From Amycolatopsis sp. FDAARGOS 1241 (GTDB taxonomy: Bacteria > Actinomycetota > Actinomycetes > Mycobacteriales > Pseudonocardiaceae): a DNA stretch of 64,000 nt. The notes under the pieces were generated by a model. The model did no database searches and was not told where the DNA came from. It worked only from the letters and a program-made list of their open reading frames with translations. The DNA lies in contig NZ_CP069526.1 in NCBI RefSeq assembly GCF_016889705.1, positions 2,728,001-2,792,000 on the forward strand. The letters run 5' to 3'. The position numbers and the translations under genes were made by a program. Every line of letters begins with the position of its first letter. Within the stretch, counting starts at the first letter, position 1. Below, piece by piece: positions 10,530-49,372 of this stretch.

Positions 10530-10741
10530 GAGACGCGGCCACCGGAGCACCTGCGTCGTCGGGGGACGCGGGTCCGCCGCGGCCGTGCTGCCGGAACCGC
10601 CTCCGCGGATGCCGTGAGGCCTCTGTCCGCTCTGGGGCCCTGGCGCACCTTCCCCGGTGCCAGGACCCGCCAGCGGGCGGGCAGGGACCTGACGGCATCC
10701 GCCGCATCTTCCCCGGGAGCACCTAGCGAAAGGGGGAGGGC

Positions 10742-28499: not shown

Positions 28500-28665
28500 G
28501 CCGCTTCGGCGGCAGCGGCACGAACCCGCTCGTGCGCTCCACGTAGGCCGCGTAGCCGGGCCGGTTGCGGGTGAGGCTCTTCTCCGGCTTCGGCTTGCCG
28601 GTGCCGTGCGCGAGCGGGTAGGTCATGGCGATCGGCGACAGGATCGTCGCCGAACCCGGTAGCCA
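28486..28665 (-). pseudogene. C-terminal remnant of a DUF1295/isoprenylcysteine-methyltransferase-like membrane protein
   Basis: About 59 codons on the minus strand, closed upstream by an in-frame TGA (28666-28668) and ending at TGA 28486-28488 inside the DinB 3' end. The readable part includes ILSPIAMTYPLAHGTGKP and RPGYAAYVERTSGFVPLPP. That is the conserved C-terminus of DUF1295-type integral membrane proteins, whose full length is about 260-300 aa. The helical N-terminal part is missing. No ribosome binding site or plausible start exists, so it is a decayed fragment, probably left when the accessory block was assembled. Confidence 0.6.
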
Positions 28666-28668
28666 TCA

Positions 28669-28986
28669 GCGTCGAACAGGCCGGTGGTTCGCCCACCGGG
28701 AAGCCGTCGGACGACGTCGTCCTCGTGATGCCCATGCCCGCGTGAGGTGGCTGCATAGCAGACGGGTGGATCACCGCGAGCTCGGGTTCCCGCGTTTGCG
28801 CACTTGTTCGCGTTGTGGCAAAACACCTTTGCCGCACACGGCGTGGCTACTGGATTAGTGCCTGCCCGGTGCCTACCGTCCTGCTCTAACGCCGGTGGTT
28901 GACATAACTCTCATTCTCGACTTGAGGGTGAGGGTTGCGGCCCCGGCGCGCAGTACGAGCACATCACGATCAGGAAGGCGGACCCG
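28669..28986 (+). promoter_or_regulatory. ftsZ upstream region with 31-bp quasi-palindrome
   Basis: No gene is seen here. TTGACA (28899-28904) is a good -35. Directly after it, the arms 28906-28920 and 28922-28936 form an inverted repeat (11 of 15 positions) with one central base; the right arm is TTGAGGGTGAGGGTT. The element covers the spacer, the -10 and the probable start region, so it is a candidate operator or leader element for ftsZ. GATCAGGAAGGCGGACCCG supplies the ribosome binding site. Confidence 0.55.
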
Positions 28987-32928: not shown

Positions 32929-33777
32929 ATGTCGTTGACCCCCGCTGACGTGCATAACGTCGCGTTCAGCAAGCCGCCCATCGGCAAGAGGGGCTACAAC
33001 GAGGACGAGGTGGACGCGTTCCTCGACCTGGTGGAGACCGAGCTTGCCCGCCTGATCGAGGACAACAACGAGCTGCGCCAGCAGGTCGAGCAGCTCGACG
33101 CCGAGCTCGAGTCGACCCGGAGCGAGCTCGAGAACGCGAAGGTGAGCGGTCCTCCACCGGTGCGGGACGAGCCGTCCCGCCGGCTGGCCCCCGTGCCGCC
33201 GCCCGCCTCGGCCATGGAGCAGACGCAGGCCCACTCGATGGTCGGCGACAGCGGCGAGCCGAATGTGCAGGCCGCGAAGGTCCTGGGCCTGGCCCAGGAG
33301 ATGGCCGACCGGCTGACCGCCGAGGCGAAGACCGAGTCCGACGGCATGCTGGCGGAGGCGCGGACGAAGTCCGAGCAGCTCCTGTCCGACGCCCGGGCGA
33401 AGTCCGACTCCATGGTCAACGAGGCGCGCACCCGCGCCGAGACCATGCTGAACGACGCGCGCACGCGCGCCGAGACGCTCGAGCGCCAGGCACGCGACAA
33501 GGCGACCACGCTGGAACGCGAGTCGCAGCGCAAGTACACCGAGACCATGAACAACCTGAACGCCGAGAAGGGCGCTCTGGGCAAGAAGATCGAGGAACTG
33601 CGCACCATCGAGCGCGAGTACCGCACCCGCCTGCGGGGCTTCCTCGAGTCCCAGCTGCGCGAACTCGACGACCGCGGCTCCGCGGCCCCGGCCTCGGCGT
33701 CGTCCGGCTCCAGCCAGTCCACCGGCTCCAGCAGCGGCCAGGGCTACTCGTTCGGCCCGCGCGCCGAAGCCGGCTGA
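32929..33777 (+). CDS. wag31: Polar growth protein DivIVA/Wag31
   Basis: 282 aa, ATG preceded by GAGGTGA. The N-terminal lipid-binding domain is recognisable ([20 protein letters not shown] then [14 protein letters not shown]). A short coiled coil, a Pro-rich linker (about 70-100) and a long coiled coil with repeating [20 protein letters not shown] units follow. The tail is Ser/Gly-rich. It forms the polar scaffold that directs apical wall synthesis. It closes the cell-division cluster. Confidence 0.96.
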
Positions 33778-33796: not shown

Positions 33797-33831
33797 GCCC
33801 CGCCCGATCCCGACCCAGGATCCGGCGGGGC
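33797..33831 (+). terminator. Hairpin after wag31
   Basis: GCCCCGCC (33797-33804) pairs perfectly with GGCGGGGC (33824-33831) over a 19-base loop and is followed by TTCG. It lies 20 bp after the wag31 stop and just before the repeat array. Confidence 0.55.
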
Positions 33832-33870
33832 TTCGCCGTGCCCACCCCTCACCGGCATCGGCGGGCGCAG

Positions 33871-34500
33871 TTTCGGCGTTGTCGGGCTCCGGCTGTGGCT
33901 GGAGCTGTGGTTTTGATCTGTCGTGAGGCTGGCGAGGACCCGAGTTGTGCGGCCTGCTGGCGTGGTTTCGGTGCGTCGTCGCAGCTCTGGCAGCGGCTGG
34001 AGCTGTGCGCTCAGTCTGCTCGCTGCGGCTGGCAGGGGCCGCGAGTTGATCGGCCCGCTGGCTTGGTCTCGGCGCTGTCCGGCTCCGGCGGCGGCTCTGG
34101 GTGGGGCCGCAGGTCGTGCGGCCTGCTGACTTGGTGTCGGCGCAGTCCGGCTTCGGCGGCGGCTGGAGCCGTGCTCTTGGTGGCCTCGCTCAGGCTGGCC
34201 CGGCGCCGCGAGTTGATCGGCCTGCTGGCGTGGGTTCGGCGTTGCCGGGCTCCGGTAGCGCCTGGAGCTGTGGTTTCGGCCTGTGGTGAGGCTGGCGGGA
34301 CCCGAGTTGCGCGGCCTGCTGTCCAGCTTCGGTACCGTCCAGCTCTGGCGGCGGCTGGAGCTGTGTCTTTGGTCTGGCTGCGGCGGCAGGAGCGGCGAGT
34401 TGACCGGGCCCGCTGGCTTGGTTTCGGCGCTGTCGGGTATCGGCAGTGGCTGGAGCTGCGGTTTCGGTCTGTGGTCGGGCCGGCTGAGGTTGACAGCGTG
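33871..34500. repeat. Degenerate tandem repeat array, seven units of about 97 bp
   Basis: The core GGCTGGAGCTGTG or a close variant recurs at 33897, 33995, 34093, 34161, 34260, 34353 and 34448. The spacings are 98, 98, 68, 99, 93 and 95 bp, with unit 3 about 30 bp short. A second core, GAGTTGATCGGCCTGCTGG, lies about 45 bp after the first in units 1, 2, 4, 5 and 6 (from 33942, 34043, 34210, 34304 and 34397), and each unit ends in TTCGG or similar. The unit length is not a multiple of three, and no ribosome binding site or recognised protein exists in any frame. I therefore call it non-coding. Its function is unknown. Confidence 0.85.
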
Positions 34501-35324
34501 CGTGACGGCGGACCCGTGTCGCCGAGCCTATTGAGTTGGCGGTGGGTGTCTTGCTCGGCCACCTGTCGGAGTGTGTCTTCGGGGCCTGCGCCGGTTGCGG
34601 TTCCTCAAGGCCACGCCACTGTGTGGCGTTGACCGGGCATTCTCCATTTCTGTAACCGGGTGATCGCAAATCGTGGTGATAGTTTCGTGATCCGCCGTGA
34701 TGTGCAGCGGCTATCGGTGATCGAATGCGCACGGAATGCAGTGGCGCGTTTTGGCAAGTGGCTGTTCGTGCTTCGCGAGTGCCCCTTCGGGCCGATCTCG
34801 ATCAGCAGTTTTCCGGCCTCGTCCAGGCGATTTCCTGGTGCGGGCGGAGGCGAGTGCGGCCATCGGTAGCCCGCACGGTTACGCGAGGGTCGCCCGGCGT
34901 CGCCGTGAAGCCCCGATCGCCTGCCGATCGCCGGGCGGCGCTTCCCGCGCGGCGGGCGTGGACCGGGTCCCGATGAGCGGGCACACGGGCCTCCAGGGAG
35001 CGGCCTGCGCGCAGCGGGTCGCCGTCGGCGGGCGTCCCCCCACGGTGACCCGCCGCGCGGACTCACCCGTCCCACCCGTGCGCGCCGGTCGGCATCGAGT
35101 GCCTTGCCCGCTGCTGCGCCGGGTCGCCGTCGGCGGACGCGCGGCCGCCGGCCCGGTGCCACCTCGCCCATGGGTAACCGTGCGTGATCTCGAAGGGTCC
35201 CACGCGAGGCCGCCTGGCCTGGGTGGTCTTGACGTCGCCGGGTGGACACGGACGGGAGCCGGTGGGGTACCCGGCGTGGGCGGGTCGTGCCGGGGGACGC
35301 GGGTTTCGCGTGCTGTAATTCAGC
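34501..35324. other. Gene-poor region after the repeat array
   Basis: About 820 bp with no gene I can support. The segment 34640-34800 is visibly less GC-rich than its surroundings and holds GTGAT at 34660, 34676, 34687, 34697 and 34717, roughly in helical phase. A 17-bp direct repeat (CGGGTCGCCGTCGGCGG) occurs at 35015-35031 and 35120-35136 within two loosely similar 105-bp stretches. The last 100 bp presumably contain the promoter of the gene at 35325. Confidence 0.6.
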
Positions 35325-36008
35325 GTGCTCTACATCGTCCTCGTTCTGGTGCTGGCGGCGCTCGCGCTGCTCGTCACGGCGCTCATCACCGCCGGCTCGC
35401 TCTGGGCCTGGGTGTCGATCGGCCTGTCGGTGCTGGCCGGGTTGCTGCTGCTCGCCGACTGGCTGCGCAGGCGCAACCGCCCGGAGCCCGCGCCCACGAA
35501 GCCGGCCGCCGAGGAGAGCGCGGAAAAGGAGAACGCGGAGAAGAAGGACGTCAAGGGCGGTGACGGCGAGCAGACCGCCCTGCTGCCCTCGACCGGGCAG
35601 CTCGGTGCCCCGGCCGACCTCCCCGAGCCGGCCGGCGAGCCGGAGCCACAGGCTGAACCGGCATCGGAGCAGGCCGAAGCCGCGACCGCCGAACCTGCAA
35701 CAGCGGCCCAAACCACCACAGAACCGGCCGCCGAAACCGCAGCAGCCGAGGAGACGGCCGACCCCGGCCGCGATGTCCCGCCGGCCGAGGAGGAGACGAG
35801 CGCGGACGACCTCGCGGTCGTCAAGGAGCTCGGGGTCGAGGTCGTCGTGGTGGACGAGTACCCGCGTTACCACCTGGTCGACTGTCCGTGGCTCTCCGGT
35901 CGCGACGCGATTCCCCTCGGCGTCGGCGAGGCGCGCCAGCTCGGGTTCACGCCGTGCGGCCGCTGCGGCCCCGACGCCGTGCTCGCCCGAGCCCACCGCA
36001 GGCGTTAG
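35325..36008 (+). CDS. Membrane protein with acidic linker and C-terminal His/Cys (zinc-like) domain
   Basis: 227 aa, GTG start. Two hydrophobic helices (about 2-20 and 27-45) are followed by a long Glu/Ala/Pro-rich linker (about 52-160). The compact C-terminal domain has His183 (RYHLVDC), Cys187, Cys211 and Cys214 (FTPCGRC) in the spacing H-x3-C-x23-C-x2-C, suggesting one bound metal ion. I do not recognise a named family. Small membrane proteins occur near wag31 in other actinobacteria, so a link to polar growth is possible. Its stop overlaps the convergent ArsR-like gene. Confidence 0.75.
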   Translation: MLYIVLVLVLAALALLVTALITAGSLWAWVSIGLSVLAGLLLLADWLRRRNRPEPAPTKPAAEESAEKENAEKKDVKGGDGEQTALLPSTGQLGAPADLPEPAGEPEPQAEPASEQAEAATAEPATAAQTTTEPAAETAAAEETADPGRDVPPAEEETSADDLAVVKELGVEVVVVDEYPRYHLVDCPWLSGRDAIPLGVGEARQLGFTPCGRCGPDAVLARAHRRR

Positions 36009-45667: not shown

Positions 45668-45677
45668 CGCAACCGGG

Positions 45678-47057
45678 TCACCGCAGGGCGGCGAGGACAG
45701 GTTCGAGCTTCTCCGGCGGGTGCCACAGCGGTAGCCGCAGGTGGGTCCGGAAGCCGTCGTAGGCGGAGAACGCGGGCCCGGGCGCCAGTTTCACGCCCGC
45801 GGCGAGGGCGCGCTGCGCCAGTCGCACGGCGTCCTCGCCGGTGTCGGCCCACAGCCCGGTGCCCCCGGCCGGCCGCGTCCAGCGCCAGCGCGGGAACAGC
45901 CGGCCGAGTACGTCCACAGTGGACCCCAGTCGATCCGTGAGCAGTGTGCGGCGTGCTGCCCGGGCTTGCGTGATCTTGCGCAGCAGCCCCGCCGCGACGA
46001 GCTGGTCGACGACCGAGCAGCCGAGGTCGATCGCCTTGCGCGCCTCGGTGAGCCGCGTGATCGTCGGCGCGTCCGCGCGAAGCCAGCCGATGCGCAGCCC
46101 GCCCCAGAACAGCTTCGACGCGGTGCCGATGCTCACCAGCAGCTCCGGTGGCACGTGCGCGGCCAGCCCCGGCGCCGGAACCGGGCCGCTGAACACCAGG
46201 TCGGCGCTGCTGCGGTCCTCGACCGTGCGCAGCCCGGCGGCGGTCACCAGCTTCGCGAGCTCGGCCCTGGCGGCGGCGGGCATCCGCTCGCCGGTCGGGT
46301 TGTGCACCGACGGCTGGCAGTAGAGCAGCGCGGGGGAGCGGCGCAGTGCCGCCCGCAGGTGGCCGTGGTCGATCCCGTCCGCCGTCCAGCGGATGCCCCG
46401 CAGGCGCGTGCCGGCGCCCGCGAACGCCTCGAGCGCACCCCGGTAGCTCGGCTCTTCGACCACGACGAGGTCGCCGGGCGTGACCAGTGTGTGCGCTACG
46501 AGCCAGACGGCCTGCTGGGCGCCGGCGGTCACGAGGACCTGCTCCGGGGTGGTGGGCACGCCGTCGTCGGTGAGCAGCCGCGCGATCATGGCGCGCAGCC
46601 GCGGGATGCCGGCGGGGAAGTAGCCGTCGGTGCCGAGGTAGGGCTCGAGGTCGGCGGGGCCGAGCGCGGCGAGTGCGCCGGCCGTCAGACCGGTCCCGGG
46701 GAGGGCCCCGCTGGACAGGTCCGCCGGGGCGGGTTCGGCGCCGGTGAACGACACCAGCCGCCCGCCCGCCACGCCCGGGCCACCGGGCTGCCGGCGCCGG
46801 ACGCGCGAGCCCGAGCCGGGCTCGGCCGTGAGCCGACCGCCCGCGGCGAGCTGCTCGTACGCCGTGGTCACGGTGCCGCGCGCCACGCCGAGCGCACGGG
46901 CGAGCGGCCGTTGCGCGGGCAGCACTGCGGCTTCCGGCAGCACGGCGGAGTCGACCAGCTCGGCCAGCGTGGTGGCGAGCGCGGCCGGCAGCGTCGGGCC
47001 GCAGCCGCGCCACGCGCCGAGCAGCCGGGCCAGTTCCGCCGCCGCGACCCGGTGCAC
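45678..47057 (-). CDS. MocR/PdxR-type GntR regulator with aminotransferase domain
   Basis: 459 aa from GTG 47057, chosen because GGAGGTGG lies 5 bases upstream; longer readings would put that site and a putative operator inside the gene. The N-terminal GntR winged helix (LPAQRPLARALGVARGTVTTAYEQL) is followed by a fold-type I aminotransferase domain with VTAGAQQAVWLVAHTL, QPSVHNPTGERM and a PLP-lysine region GTASKLFWGGLRIGW. Such proteins sense PLP-linked ligands. It diverges from the Tm-1-like operon and probably controls it. Confidence 0.9.
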   Translation of the reverse strand: MHRVAAAELARLLGAWRGCGPTLPAALATTLAELVDSAVLPEAAVLPAQRPLARALGVARGTVTTAYEQLAAGGRLTAEPGSGSRVRRRQPGGPGVAGGRLVSFTGAEPAPADLSSGALPGTGLTAGALAALGPADLEPYLGTDGYFPAGIPRLRAMIARLLTDDGVPTTPEQVLVTAGAQQAVWLVAHTLVTPGDLVVVEEPSYRGALEAFAGAGTRLRGIRWTADGIDHGHLRAALRRSPALLYCQPSVHNPTGERMPAAARAELAKLVTAAGLRTVEDRSSADLVFSGPVPAPGLAAHVPPELLVSIGTASKLFWGGLRIGWLRADAPTITRLTEARKAIDLGCSVVDQLVAAGLLRKITQARAARRTLLTDRLGSTVDVLGRLFPRWRWTRPAGGTGLWADTGEDAVRLAQRALAAGVKLAPGPAFSAYDGFRTHLRLPLWHPPEKLEPVLAALR

Positions 47058-47058
47058 G

Positions 47059-47089
47059 TGGACCACCTCCACCTGCCAGTTTGGACCAC
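47059..47089. promoter_or_regulatory. Direct-repeat operator candidate for the MocR regulator
   Basis: TGGACCAC occurs at 47059-47066 and again at 47082-47089, start to start 23 bp, about two helical turns. CCAGTTTGG (47076-47084) lies between. MocR proteins typically bind spaced direct repeats in the divergent promoter, so position and spacing fit; the right copy sits where promoter elements of both genes are expected. Confidence 0.5.
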
Positions 47090-47142
47090 TTCGGCGGAAG
47101 CGGCCCATCGGTTGCGGGCCCGGCTGGGCCACCATGGCCGGC

Positions 47143-48354
47143 ATGGCCACGGTCTGCCTCGTCGGCACCCTCGACACGAAACGCGCCGAATACGACTGGC
47201 TCCGCACCCGGCTCGAGGTCGACGGCGTGCACACGCTGCTGGTCGACGCCGGGTCCTCGGGTTCCGAGGGTGCGGACGTGCCTGCCGAGGAGGTCGCGCG
47301 CGCCGCCGGGGCGAAACTGGAGTCGCTGCGCGGCGACCGGGGCCGGGCCGTGGAGACGATGGCGCGTGGCGCGGCGGTGGTCGTGCGGCGGCTGTTCGAC
47401 GAGGGGCGGGTCGACGGCGTGCTCGCGGTCGGCGGCTCCGGTGGCTCGTCGATCGCCGCGGCGGTGATGCGGGAGCTGCCGGTGGGCGTGCCGAAGCTGC
47501 TCGTGTCGACGATGGCGTCCGGCGACGTGCGCCCGTACGTGGGTGAAACCGACGTGACGCTGATGTACTCCGTGGTCGACATCGCGGGTCTCAACGCCGT
47601 GTCGACGACAGTGTTCGGCAACGCGGTGGCCGCGATCGCCGCCATGGCGCGCCGCCGCGACGAAGGCGTTCCGGTGCCGGAGCGGCCGGTGGTCGCGGTG
47701 ACGATGTTCGGCGTCACCACCCCCGCGGCCGACGAAGCCCGCGCCGAGCTGGCGGGGCTGGGTTATGAGGTGCTCGTGTTCCACGCGACCGGCTCCGGCG
47801 GGCGGGCGATGGAGAAGCTCGTGACCGACGGCCTCGTCGCCGGTGTGCTCGACCTGACCACCACGGAGCTGGCCGACGAGCTCGTCGGCGGCGTGCTGTC
47901 CGCCGGCCCGCACCGACTCGAGGCCGCAGGGCGCGCGGGCGTTCCGCAAGTGGTCAGCGTGGGGGCGCTCGACATGGTCAACTTCGGGCCGGCCGACACC
48001 GTCCCGGAGCGGTTCGCTGAGCGGAACCTGTTGGTGCACAACCCGACTGTCACGCTCATGCGCACGACGCCCGAGGAGACCGCGCAGCTGGGCACGCTGC
48101 TCGGGCGCAAACTCCGGGCCGCTCGCGGACCGGTGTCGGTGCTCCTGCCTCTCGGCGGAGTGTCCGCAGTGGACGTTCCCGGCGGGCCGTTCCACGACCC
48201 GGCCGCCGACGCCGCGCTGTTCACCGGCCTGACCGAAGAGCTCGCCGGGTCCGCGGTTTCCGTGCAGCGGCGCGAAGAGGCCATCAACGACCCCGGGTTC
48301 GGGGCGGCCGCAGCGCGCGAGCTGCACCGGCTCATCGGCGAGAGGAAGTCCTGA
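47143..48354 (+). CDS. Tm-1-like ATP-binding protein (UPF0261)
   Basis: 403 aa; ATG 47134 is a possible alternative three codons upstream. The UPF0261 start [18 protein letters not shown] is clear, followed by the glycine-rich [46 protein letters not shown], a second domain with [18 protein letters not shown], and [13 protein letters not shown]. This corresponds to the N-terminal ATP-binding domain of tomato Tm-1. One base separates it from the TIM-barrel gene that matches the other Tm-1 half. The metabolic role in bacteria is unknown. Confidence 0.9.
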
Positions 48355-48355
48355 C

Positions 48356-49177
48356 GTGGACCGCGCGGAGGCGCTGGCCCGGCTCACCGCCGCGGTGGCC
48401 GGAGGACGACCGGTGATCGGTGGCGGCGCGGGCACCGGCCTGTCCGCCAAGGCGGCCGAGGCCGGCGGCATCGATCTGCTGATCATCTACAACTCCGGGC
48501 GCTACCGCATGGCCGGGCGCGGTTCACTCGCGGGGCTGCTGGCCTACGGCGACGCCAACGGCATCGTGGTCGACATGGCGCGCGAGGTGCTCCCCGTCGT
48601 GCGGGACACGCCGGTGCTGGCCGGTGTCAACGGCACCGATCCGTTCCGGCTCATGGGCCCGTTCCTCCACGAGCTGAAGCGCCTGGGGTTCGCCGGGGTG
48701 CAGAACTTCCCTACGGTGGGCCTGATCGACGGCGTCTTCCGGCAGAACCTCGAGGAGACCGGCATGGGGTACGGCCTGGAAGTCGACCTCGTCGCGCTCG
48801 CCCGCGAACGCGACTTGCTGACCGCGCCCTACGTGTTCGACCCGGGGCAGGCCGAGGACATGACCCGCGCGGGCGCGGACGTGCTCGTGCCGCACCTCGG
48901 GCTGACCACGAGCGGCACGATCGGCGCGCGCACCGCCGTGTCGCTCGACGAGGCCGCCGCCCGCGTGCAGGAGATGCACGACGCCGCCAAGCGGGTGAAT
49001 CCCGACGTGCTCGTGCTGTGCCACGGCGGCCCGATCGCCGAACCCGCGGACGCCCAGTACGTGCTCGACCACACCGACGGGGTGGTCGGCTTCTTCGGCG
49101 CTTCCTCGATCGAACGGCTCCCGACGGAGCGCGCGATCCGCGAGCAGACGGAGGCCTTCCGCGCGGTGCGGCGGTGA
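48356..49177 (+). CDS. TIM-barrel protein of the phosphoenolpyruvate-hydrolase-like family
   Basis: 273 aa, GTG start one base after the Tm-1-like stop. It is a TIM barrel with the family's conserved blocks: [70 protein letters not shown], and the C-terminal [17 protein letters not shown] and [12 protein letters not shown]. This domain is fused to the Tm-1 domain in plants and fungi. The two adjacent genes therefore form the split bacterial version. No enzymatic activity is established with certainty. Confidence 0.9.
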
Positions 49178-49254
49178 TCGTCTCCGTGTGAGCGCCGTCT
49201 CAGCTCACCGGACACCTCTGGCGTCCCGCCGCTTCGTTCGGTTACCTTCTGAGT

Positions 49255-49372
49255 CAGGTCATGAGTGCCAGCGTCAAGCCCCGGCTAGCTGGCCGGCAAC
49301 CCTCCTACCGCGGTGGGGTGCCCCGGGTGAGGACCAGGCCGGTCGCGCAGCGCGACGGGCAAGCGCGGGCCC
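49255..49372 (+). promoter_or_regulatory. SAM-IV riboswitch
   Basis: The aptamer has the SAM-IV core: GGTC (49257-49260) pairs with GACC (49332-49335) as outer stem. Between them lie GAGTGCCAGCGTCAAGCCCC, GCTGGCCGGCAACCCTCC and CCGCGGTGGGGTGCCCCGGG. The trailing element CGACGGGCAAGCGCGGG (49353-49369) is the SAM-IV-specific extension. It regulates in response to S-adenosylmethionine. The expression platform to 49410 contains a GC hairpin and the GAGGAGG ribosome binding site. Confidence 0.9.

Follow-up and report, generated by a model that had tools for sequence, protein, structure and literature searches.

A degenerate seven-unit tandem repeat array in the long spacer downstream of wag31 in an Amycolatopsis genome

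In the 64-kb stretch of DNA analysed here (“the window”, G000:C1:2728001–2792000 of a 9.8-Mb genome; positions are those of the window unless given in Mb), the region 3′ of wag31 holds seven degenerate units arranged head-to-tail on the + strand with a period of ≈97 bp, from 33873 to ≈34489. The array is non-coding, and it is very probably an ordinary degenerate bacterial minisatellite, drifting in a long spacer specific to this lineage. It comes after the wag31 stop (33777) and the hairpin behind that stop, and past the array the sequence is non-coding up to 35325. The features of the locus are:

32929..33777, + strand: wag31/divIVA, the array's neighbour, an ORF of 282 aa with a match in 80/80 genus genomes
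33797..33831, + strand: hairpin after wag31, a probable terminator, read by eye in a region common to the relatives G028 and G094
33873..33967, + strand: repeat unit U1
33968..34068, + strand: repeat unit U2
34069..34136, + strand: repeat unit U3, with an internal deletion of ≈30 nt
34137..34235, + strand: repeat unit U4
34236..34328, + strand: repeat unit U5
34329..34423, + strand: repeat unit U6
34424..34489, + strand: repeat unit U7, partial and most diverged, end approximate
34714..34840, + strand: spacer block common to the two nearest relatives (72%), from sequence comparison, gap positions 937–1063
35325..36008, + strand: downstream gene, an ORF of 227 aa with a hydrophobic N-terminus and no Pfam match above cut-off

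The top two Tandem Repeats Finder scores of the window, 399 (period 167) and 238 (period 98), both belong to the array, with 106 the next-highest, and none of 300 dinucleotide-preserving shuffles of 33841–34520 yields a match with a period of at least 40; both agree with the original prediction of a seven-unit tandem array of about 97 bp after wag31. The unit spacings of 98, 98, 68, 99, 93, and 95 bp are exactly as predicted, while the core placed in all seven units had been over-counted: GGCTGGAGCTGTG is exact in three (33897, 33995, 34353), carries one mismatch in three (34161, 34260, 34448), and is lacking in U3, where it would be expected near 34093 and where ≈30 nt are missing. A + strand scan of the whole window finds this core at ≤1 mismatch at six sites, every one inside the array. 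The second core, GAGTTGATCGGCCTGCTGG, credited to five units, can be located in five versions, of which only that at 34210 is exact; those at 34043, 33942, and 34304 have 1–3 mismatches, and the fifth, beginning at 34397, is one base longer.

The units, 66–101 nt long, are 63–85% identical in pairs, with indels. The closest pairs are U1–U5 (82%) and U2–U6 (85%), with U1–U2 at only 75%, and the block U1–U3 matches the block U5–U7 at 81% over 237 bp; the affinities of U3 (79% to U1 and U4) and U4 (79% to U2 and U3) are less clear. Repeated block duplication would give this unit order. We propose that a segment of ≈97 bp just 3′ of the wag31 terminator would have been duplicated in tandem, that later duplications would have taken multi-unit blocks and led to the present order, that one unit would then have lost ≈30 nt, and that the copies may since have drifted without selection. 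The mechanism would be replication slippage or unequal recombination, and the duplication steps would have followed one another in the order given. The original prediction of a non-coding array with non-triplet spacing holds, and of the three options offered with it the “expanded recombination scar” comes nearest.

The spacer itself is long in few genomes. Gap length, counted between the stop of wag31 and codon 2 of the gene that follows, was measurable in 78 of the 80 genus genomes (in G004 the probe has no match, though the next gene is visible ≈90 bases on, and the stretch of G091 ends after 231 bases, in low-complexity sequence). It is 82–243 bp in 75 of these 78, too short for seven units, and exceeds 700 bp only here (1551 bp), in G094 (1330 bp), and in G028 (721 bp). 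At the 4-fold sites of wag31, G028 and G094 are the nearest (0.186 and 0.210; next 0.255) of 29 relatives, these being the genomes with the most similar Wag31 among 79 and nearness meaning 4-fold-site distance. The three long-gap genomes have in common the terminator region, the 127-bp block (72%), and ≈84 bp at the end of the spacer; from terminator to block the distance is ≈870 bp here versus ≈100 bp in G028 and G094. The G094 spacer carries a two-copy duplication of its own (84%, 128 bp apart, at positions 563–648 and 691–774 after the wag31 stop, within spacer sequence missing from G028), which is unrelated to the array, so the spacer saw duplication more than once.

When the syntenic gaps of the window are compared with those of G028 (10 of 10 gaps listed), G094 (11 of 11), and G012 (14 of 15), the wag31 spacer alone among the listed gaps is larger here than in each of the three relatives, and several others differ by kilobases in one or more of them. 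Upstream of ftsZ (28652–28754), G028, G094, and G012 are each ≈5.3–5.6 kb longer than this genome, the extra stretch of G028 holding what we take, by eye, to be an anti-sigma factor-like frame beside a possible sigma-factor frame. At 45670–49185, ≈3.5 kb present here are absent from G094 and G012, a difference that is not flagged against G028. In G090, wag31 is matched twice, in separate pieces that overlap (G090:C1:9357460–9358310; residues 1–174 and 147–282); a frameshift, duplication, or sequencing error could explain this. Directly 5′ of the GTG start of the gene after the spacer lies TGTAATTCAGC (35310–35330), which is nearly invariant in most of the relatives shown and which, by resemblance, is a candidate −10 box of a leaderless mRNA.

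The unit is confined to this one place. A profile built from the seven units with 10 stem pairs scores them at 48–97 bits, and no other site of the genome exceeds 30.4 bits; the best scores of the profile are 30.8 bits in 39 other genomes and 29.3 bits in G028 and G094, both at background level, so that the array is absent from the two nearest relatives. At E ≤ 0.1 the profile has some match in 20 of 40 genomes, as expected of a background of this size, and the G028 and G094 spacers show no remnant of the array (p 0.22–0.78). A DNA search at E ≤ 1e-3 matches 15 of 60 genomes (the own genome included), the best match outside the array reaching 9.4e-6; among the 18 non-array matches, L002, L003, and L004 lie in long frames, the second match in the own genome (L017) looks coding by eye, and L005, L006, L014, and L016 have no array with a unit of at least 30 bp. 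With blastn, 297 other order-level genomes give one match at E ≤ 1e-6, within a transporter-like frame, and 72,556 plasmid and 50,697 phage records give no match to the array. The outcome hoped for originally, conservation of the array beside wag31 in differing copy number, is not borne out: the profile is at background in 41 relatives and the gaps are 82–243 bp in 75 of 78 genomes.

These searches bear directly on two other readings. Had a mobile or dispersed (REP-like) element landed here and then been amplified, a palindromic core and the additional length between terminator and common block would be accounted for; yet the genome has no other copy, the plasmid and phage records are silent, and the single order-level match lies in the transporter-like frame, and we regard such a remnant as very improbable. 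MIRU- or REP-like repeats have copies at many places of one genome, and we rejected a dispersed repeat of this kind on the same count, as all units scoring at least 48 bits are at a single site and the next score is 30.4. An array adjoining wag31 that binds a protein or organizes the chromosome, another of the options offered originally, would suit the regular spacing near 97 bp and the recurrent cores. The cores do not, however, stand out in conservation from the remainder of the unit: no window of 8, 12, 20, or 30 columns is significantly conserved (smallest p 0.095). Together with the absence of further copies from this genome, and of any copy from G028, G094, and 39 other relatives, this leaves the binding array unsupported and, in our view, highly unlikely. 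A protein-coding repeat is the least credible reading, although stop-free frames of 264 aa (+) and 183 aa (−) span the array, which lies within a 568-codon stop-free stretch. The spacings modulo 3 are 2, 2, 2, 0, 0, and 2, so four of six break the frame, and a Pfam search of four frames spanning the array gives nothing at E ≤ 0.1; on these two grounds the protein reading was dropped, and the earlier statement that degenerate units of non-triplet length exclude a protein repeat is borne out. Only 6% of the + strand bases of the array are A, which makes stops rare by composition, and the long open frames there therefore carry little weight. Frame length alone does not set the array apart from coding arrays, as is illustrated by a control in which Tandem Repeats Finder was applied to the window plus 40 stretches of 20 kb each (20 from the own genome, 10 from G094, and 10 from G012). 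Outside the window, a period of at least 40 with a score of at least 300 occurs in 2 of the 40 stretches, both from the own genome: L087 (period 276) and L102 (periods 90, 102, and 186; at 9.60 Mb). All of these periods are divisible by three, and the long degenerate repeats of L102 lie in a large collagen-like frame, read as a repeat protein. A third array of this genome, found via the core pattern (L080, 7.876 Mb), lies in a 1456-aa proline-rich frame.

What most deserves weighing against the minisatellite reading is a ladder of tandem terminator-like hairpins, each unit providing a stem, CGGCTCCGGC / GCTGGAGCTG, with T residues in the tail behind it, which would stop wag31 read-through before the next gene and whose unit may descend from the wag31 terminator region. 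The array does sit between two co-oriented genes, and a stem of 9–12 pairs with a 4-nt loop beats shuffles in U1, U2, U4, U5, and U6 (p 0.007–0.04). Terminator-like patterns number six where 1.1 ± 1.0 would be expected, though several of the six overlap and read the same two hairpins; the hairpin-plus-T pattern occurs at U1 and U6. The whole + strand folds with a z of −3.0 (20 shuffles only), compared with 0.04 for the − strand. These hairpins in five units, the + strand z, and the six patterns are the evidence that runs counter to the minisatellite reading. Against the ladder, U3 and U7 have no hairpin that is significant versus shuffles, the U1 hairpin is equally strong versus shuffles on the − strand, and the hairpin tests amount to about one observation because the units have common ancestry. 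Six of the seven units folded singly have a z between −0.74 and +0.84 (U7, −3.46), and cross-unit pairing is no better than shuffled. The stem shows no covariation: 335 of 500 shuffles reach its score and no pair is changed on both sides, while in the predicted consensus fold one pair is changed on both sides and the covariation term is unfavourable. Among ≈10 stem changes, 6–7 keep pairing (hand count) where 45% are expected (p 0.10–0.26). The stem pairs in 92% of cells versus 23–53% when slid, as expected of a structure derived from these same sequences.

Descent of the unit from a terminator is suggested by one group of relatives. Eight related relatives have, at the corresponding position, a terminator and 3′ flank that resemble the unit consensus (empirical p 0.002–0.036 against 6000 genomic 150-mers; p ≤ 0.01 in 5 of 75 gaps); these eight amount to about one test because they are near-identical there, the first look being post hoc. 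No such resemblance is seen at this genome's own terminator (p 0.61) or at the terminators of G028 and G094 (p 0.82), and the proposed descent is a suggestive lead from that one group of relatives. The probable terminator hairpin at 33797–33831 is not listed by the terminator scan, which covers loops of 3–8 only. On balance we consider the ladder unlikely. A fuller version, which we think quite unlikely, would have it arise from the region of the wag31 terminator within a single Amycolatopsis lineage and serve today to shield the downstream gene from wag31 transcription; if true, it would be a case of a transcription terminator turned into a satellite. The structured RNA option offered originally gains little from single units with a z near zero in six cases, cross-unit pairing at the level of shuffles, and the whole + strand z, and a structured RNA array was rejected for want of stem covariation and of a known RNA family on the array. 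The two matches in the window above the Rfam gathering score both lie off the array: a SAM-IV riboswitch at 49257–49371 (115 bits) and an mraW RNA at 10601–10710 (64 bits). Among the tests for function, the whole-strand fold with its hairpins and the terminator-like patterns lean weakly towards function; the others do not. Constraint is not detectable, and the minisatellite would be evolving neutrally.

How old the minisatellite might be can be judged from the divergence of its units. After a correction made by hand, the 15–18% between U2 and U6 and between U1 and U5 would place the block duplication near the split from G028 and G094, and the 25% between U1 and U2 would mark an older duplication, provided that the spacer changes at that rate. 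The array would either have been lost in G028 and G094 or be changing faster than the 4-fold rate. A strand-damage signature (C-to-T and A-to-G), suggested by the A-poor strand, was rejected: departures from the unit majority include T>C 19, C>T 14, G>A 13, and A>G 1 among others, with no one-way bias. T exceeds A in the wag31 gaps of 28 of 29 relatives, the 29th being without a motif to measure to, so the skew is general at the wag31 gap. With dnaA at 9.19 Mb, the + strand would be the leading strand if the origin lies beside that gene.

With the short gap known from 75 relatives and the long gap in three, two of which carry different duplications in the spacer, the locus offers a compact and clear example of how a spacer in a bacterium becomes a satellite, and it can be used for studying the expansion of non-coding DNA in dense actinobacterial genomes. 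Barring transcription data to the contrary, the array tells nothing new about wag31.

Comparison with known systems places the array among prokaryotic satellites. CRISPR arrays consist of near-identical short repeats with unrelated spacers between them, and this candidate was rejected, as the units here are contiguous, alike along their whole length, and 63–85% identical. The MIRU-VNTR loci of Mycobacterium are intergenic tandem repeats in an actinobacterium, and MIRUs are dispersed over many loci per genome; the wag31 array is likewise intergenic, tandem, and actinobacterial, but unlike MIRUs has its unit at one place only. Satellites have been described as a class in prokaryotes; the survey by Subirana and Messeguer (2019; PMC6749651) defines them by at least four head-to-tail units of 10–200 nt, which compares with seven of 66–101 nt in our array. 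The survey also demands internal regularity, a test that units 63–85% identical might not pass, and places many satellites inside coding genes, whereas the wag31 array is non-coding. For Amycolatopsis mediterranei a table of the survey counts 23 satellites, of which 39.1% have long repeats, and the figures given for Amycolatopsis orientalis NCPC 2-48 (PMC7852140), 404 tandem repeats of which 325 are called minisatellites, indicate that tandem repeats are common in the genus. The array fits the satellite class, and is less usual within it in being non-coding, strongly diverged, and confined to the long spacer of one lineage.
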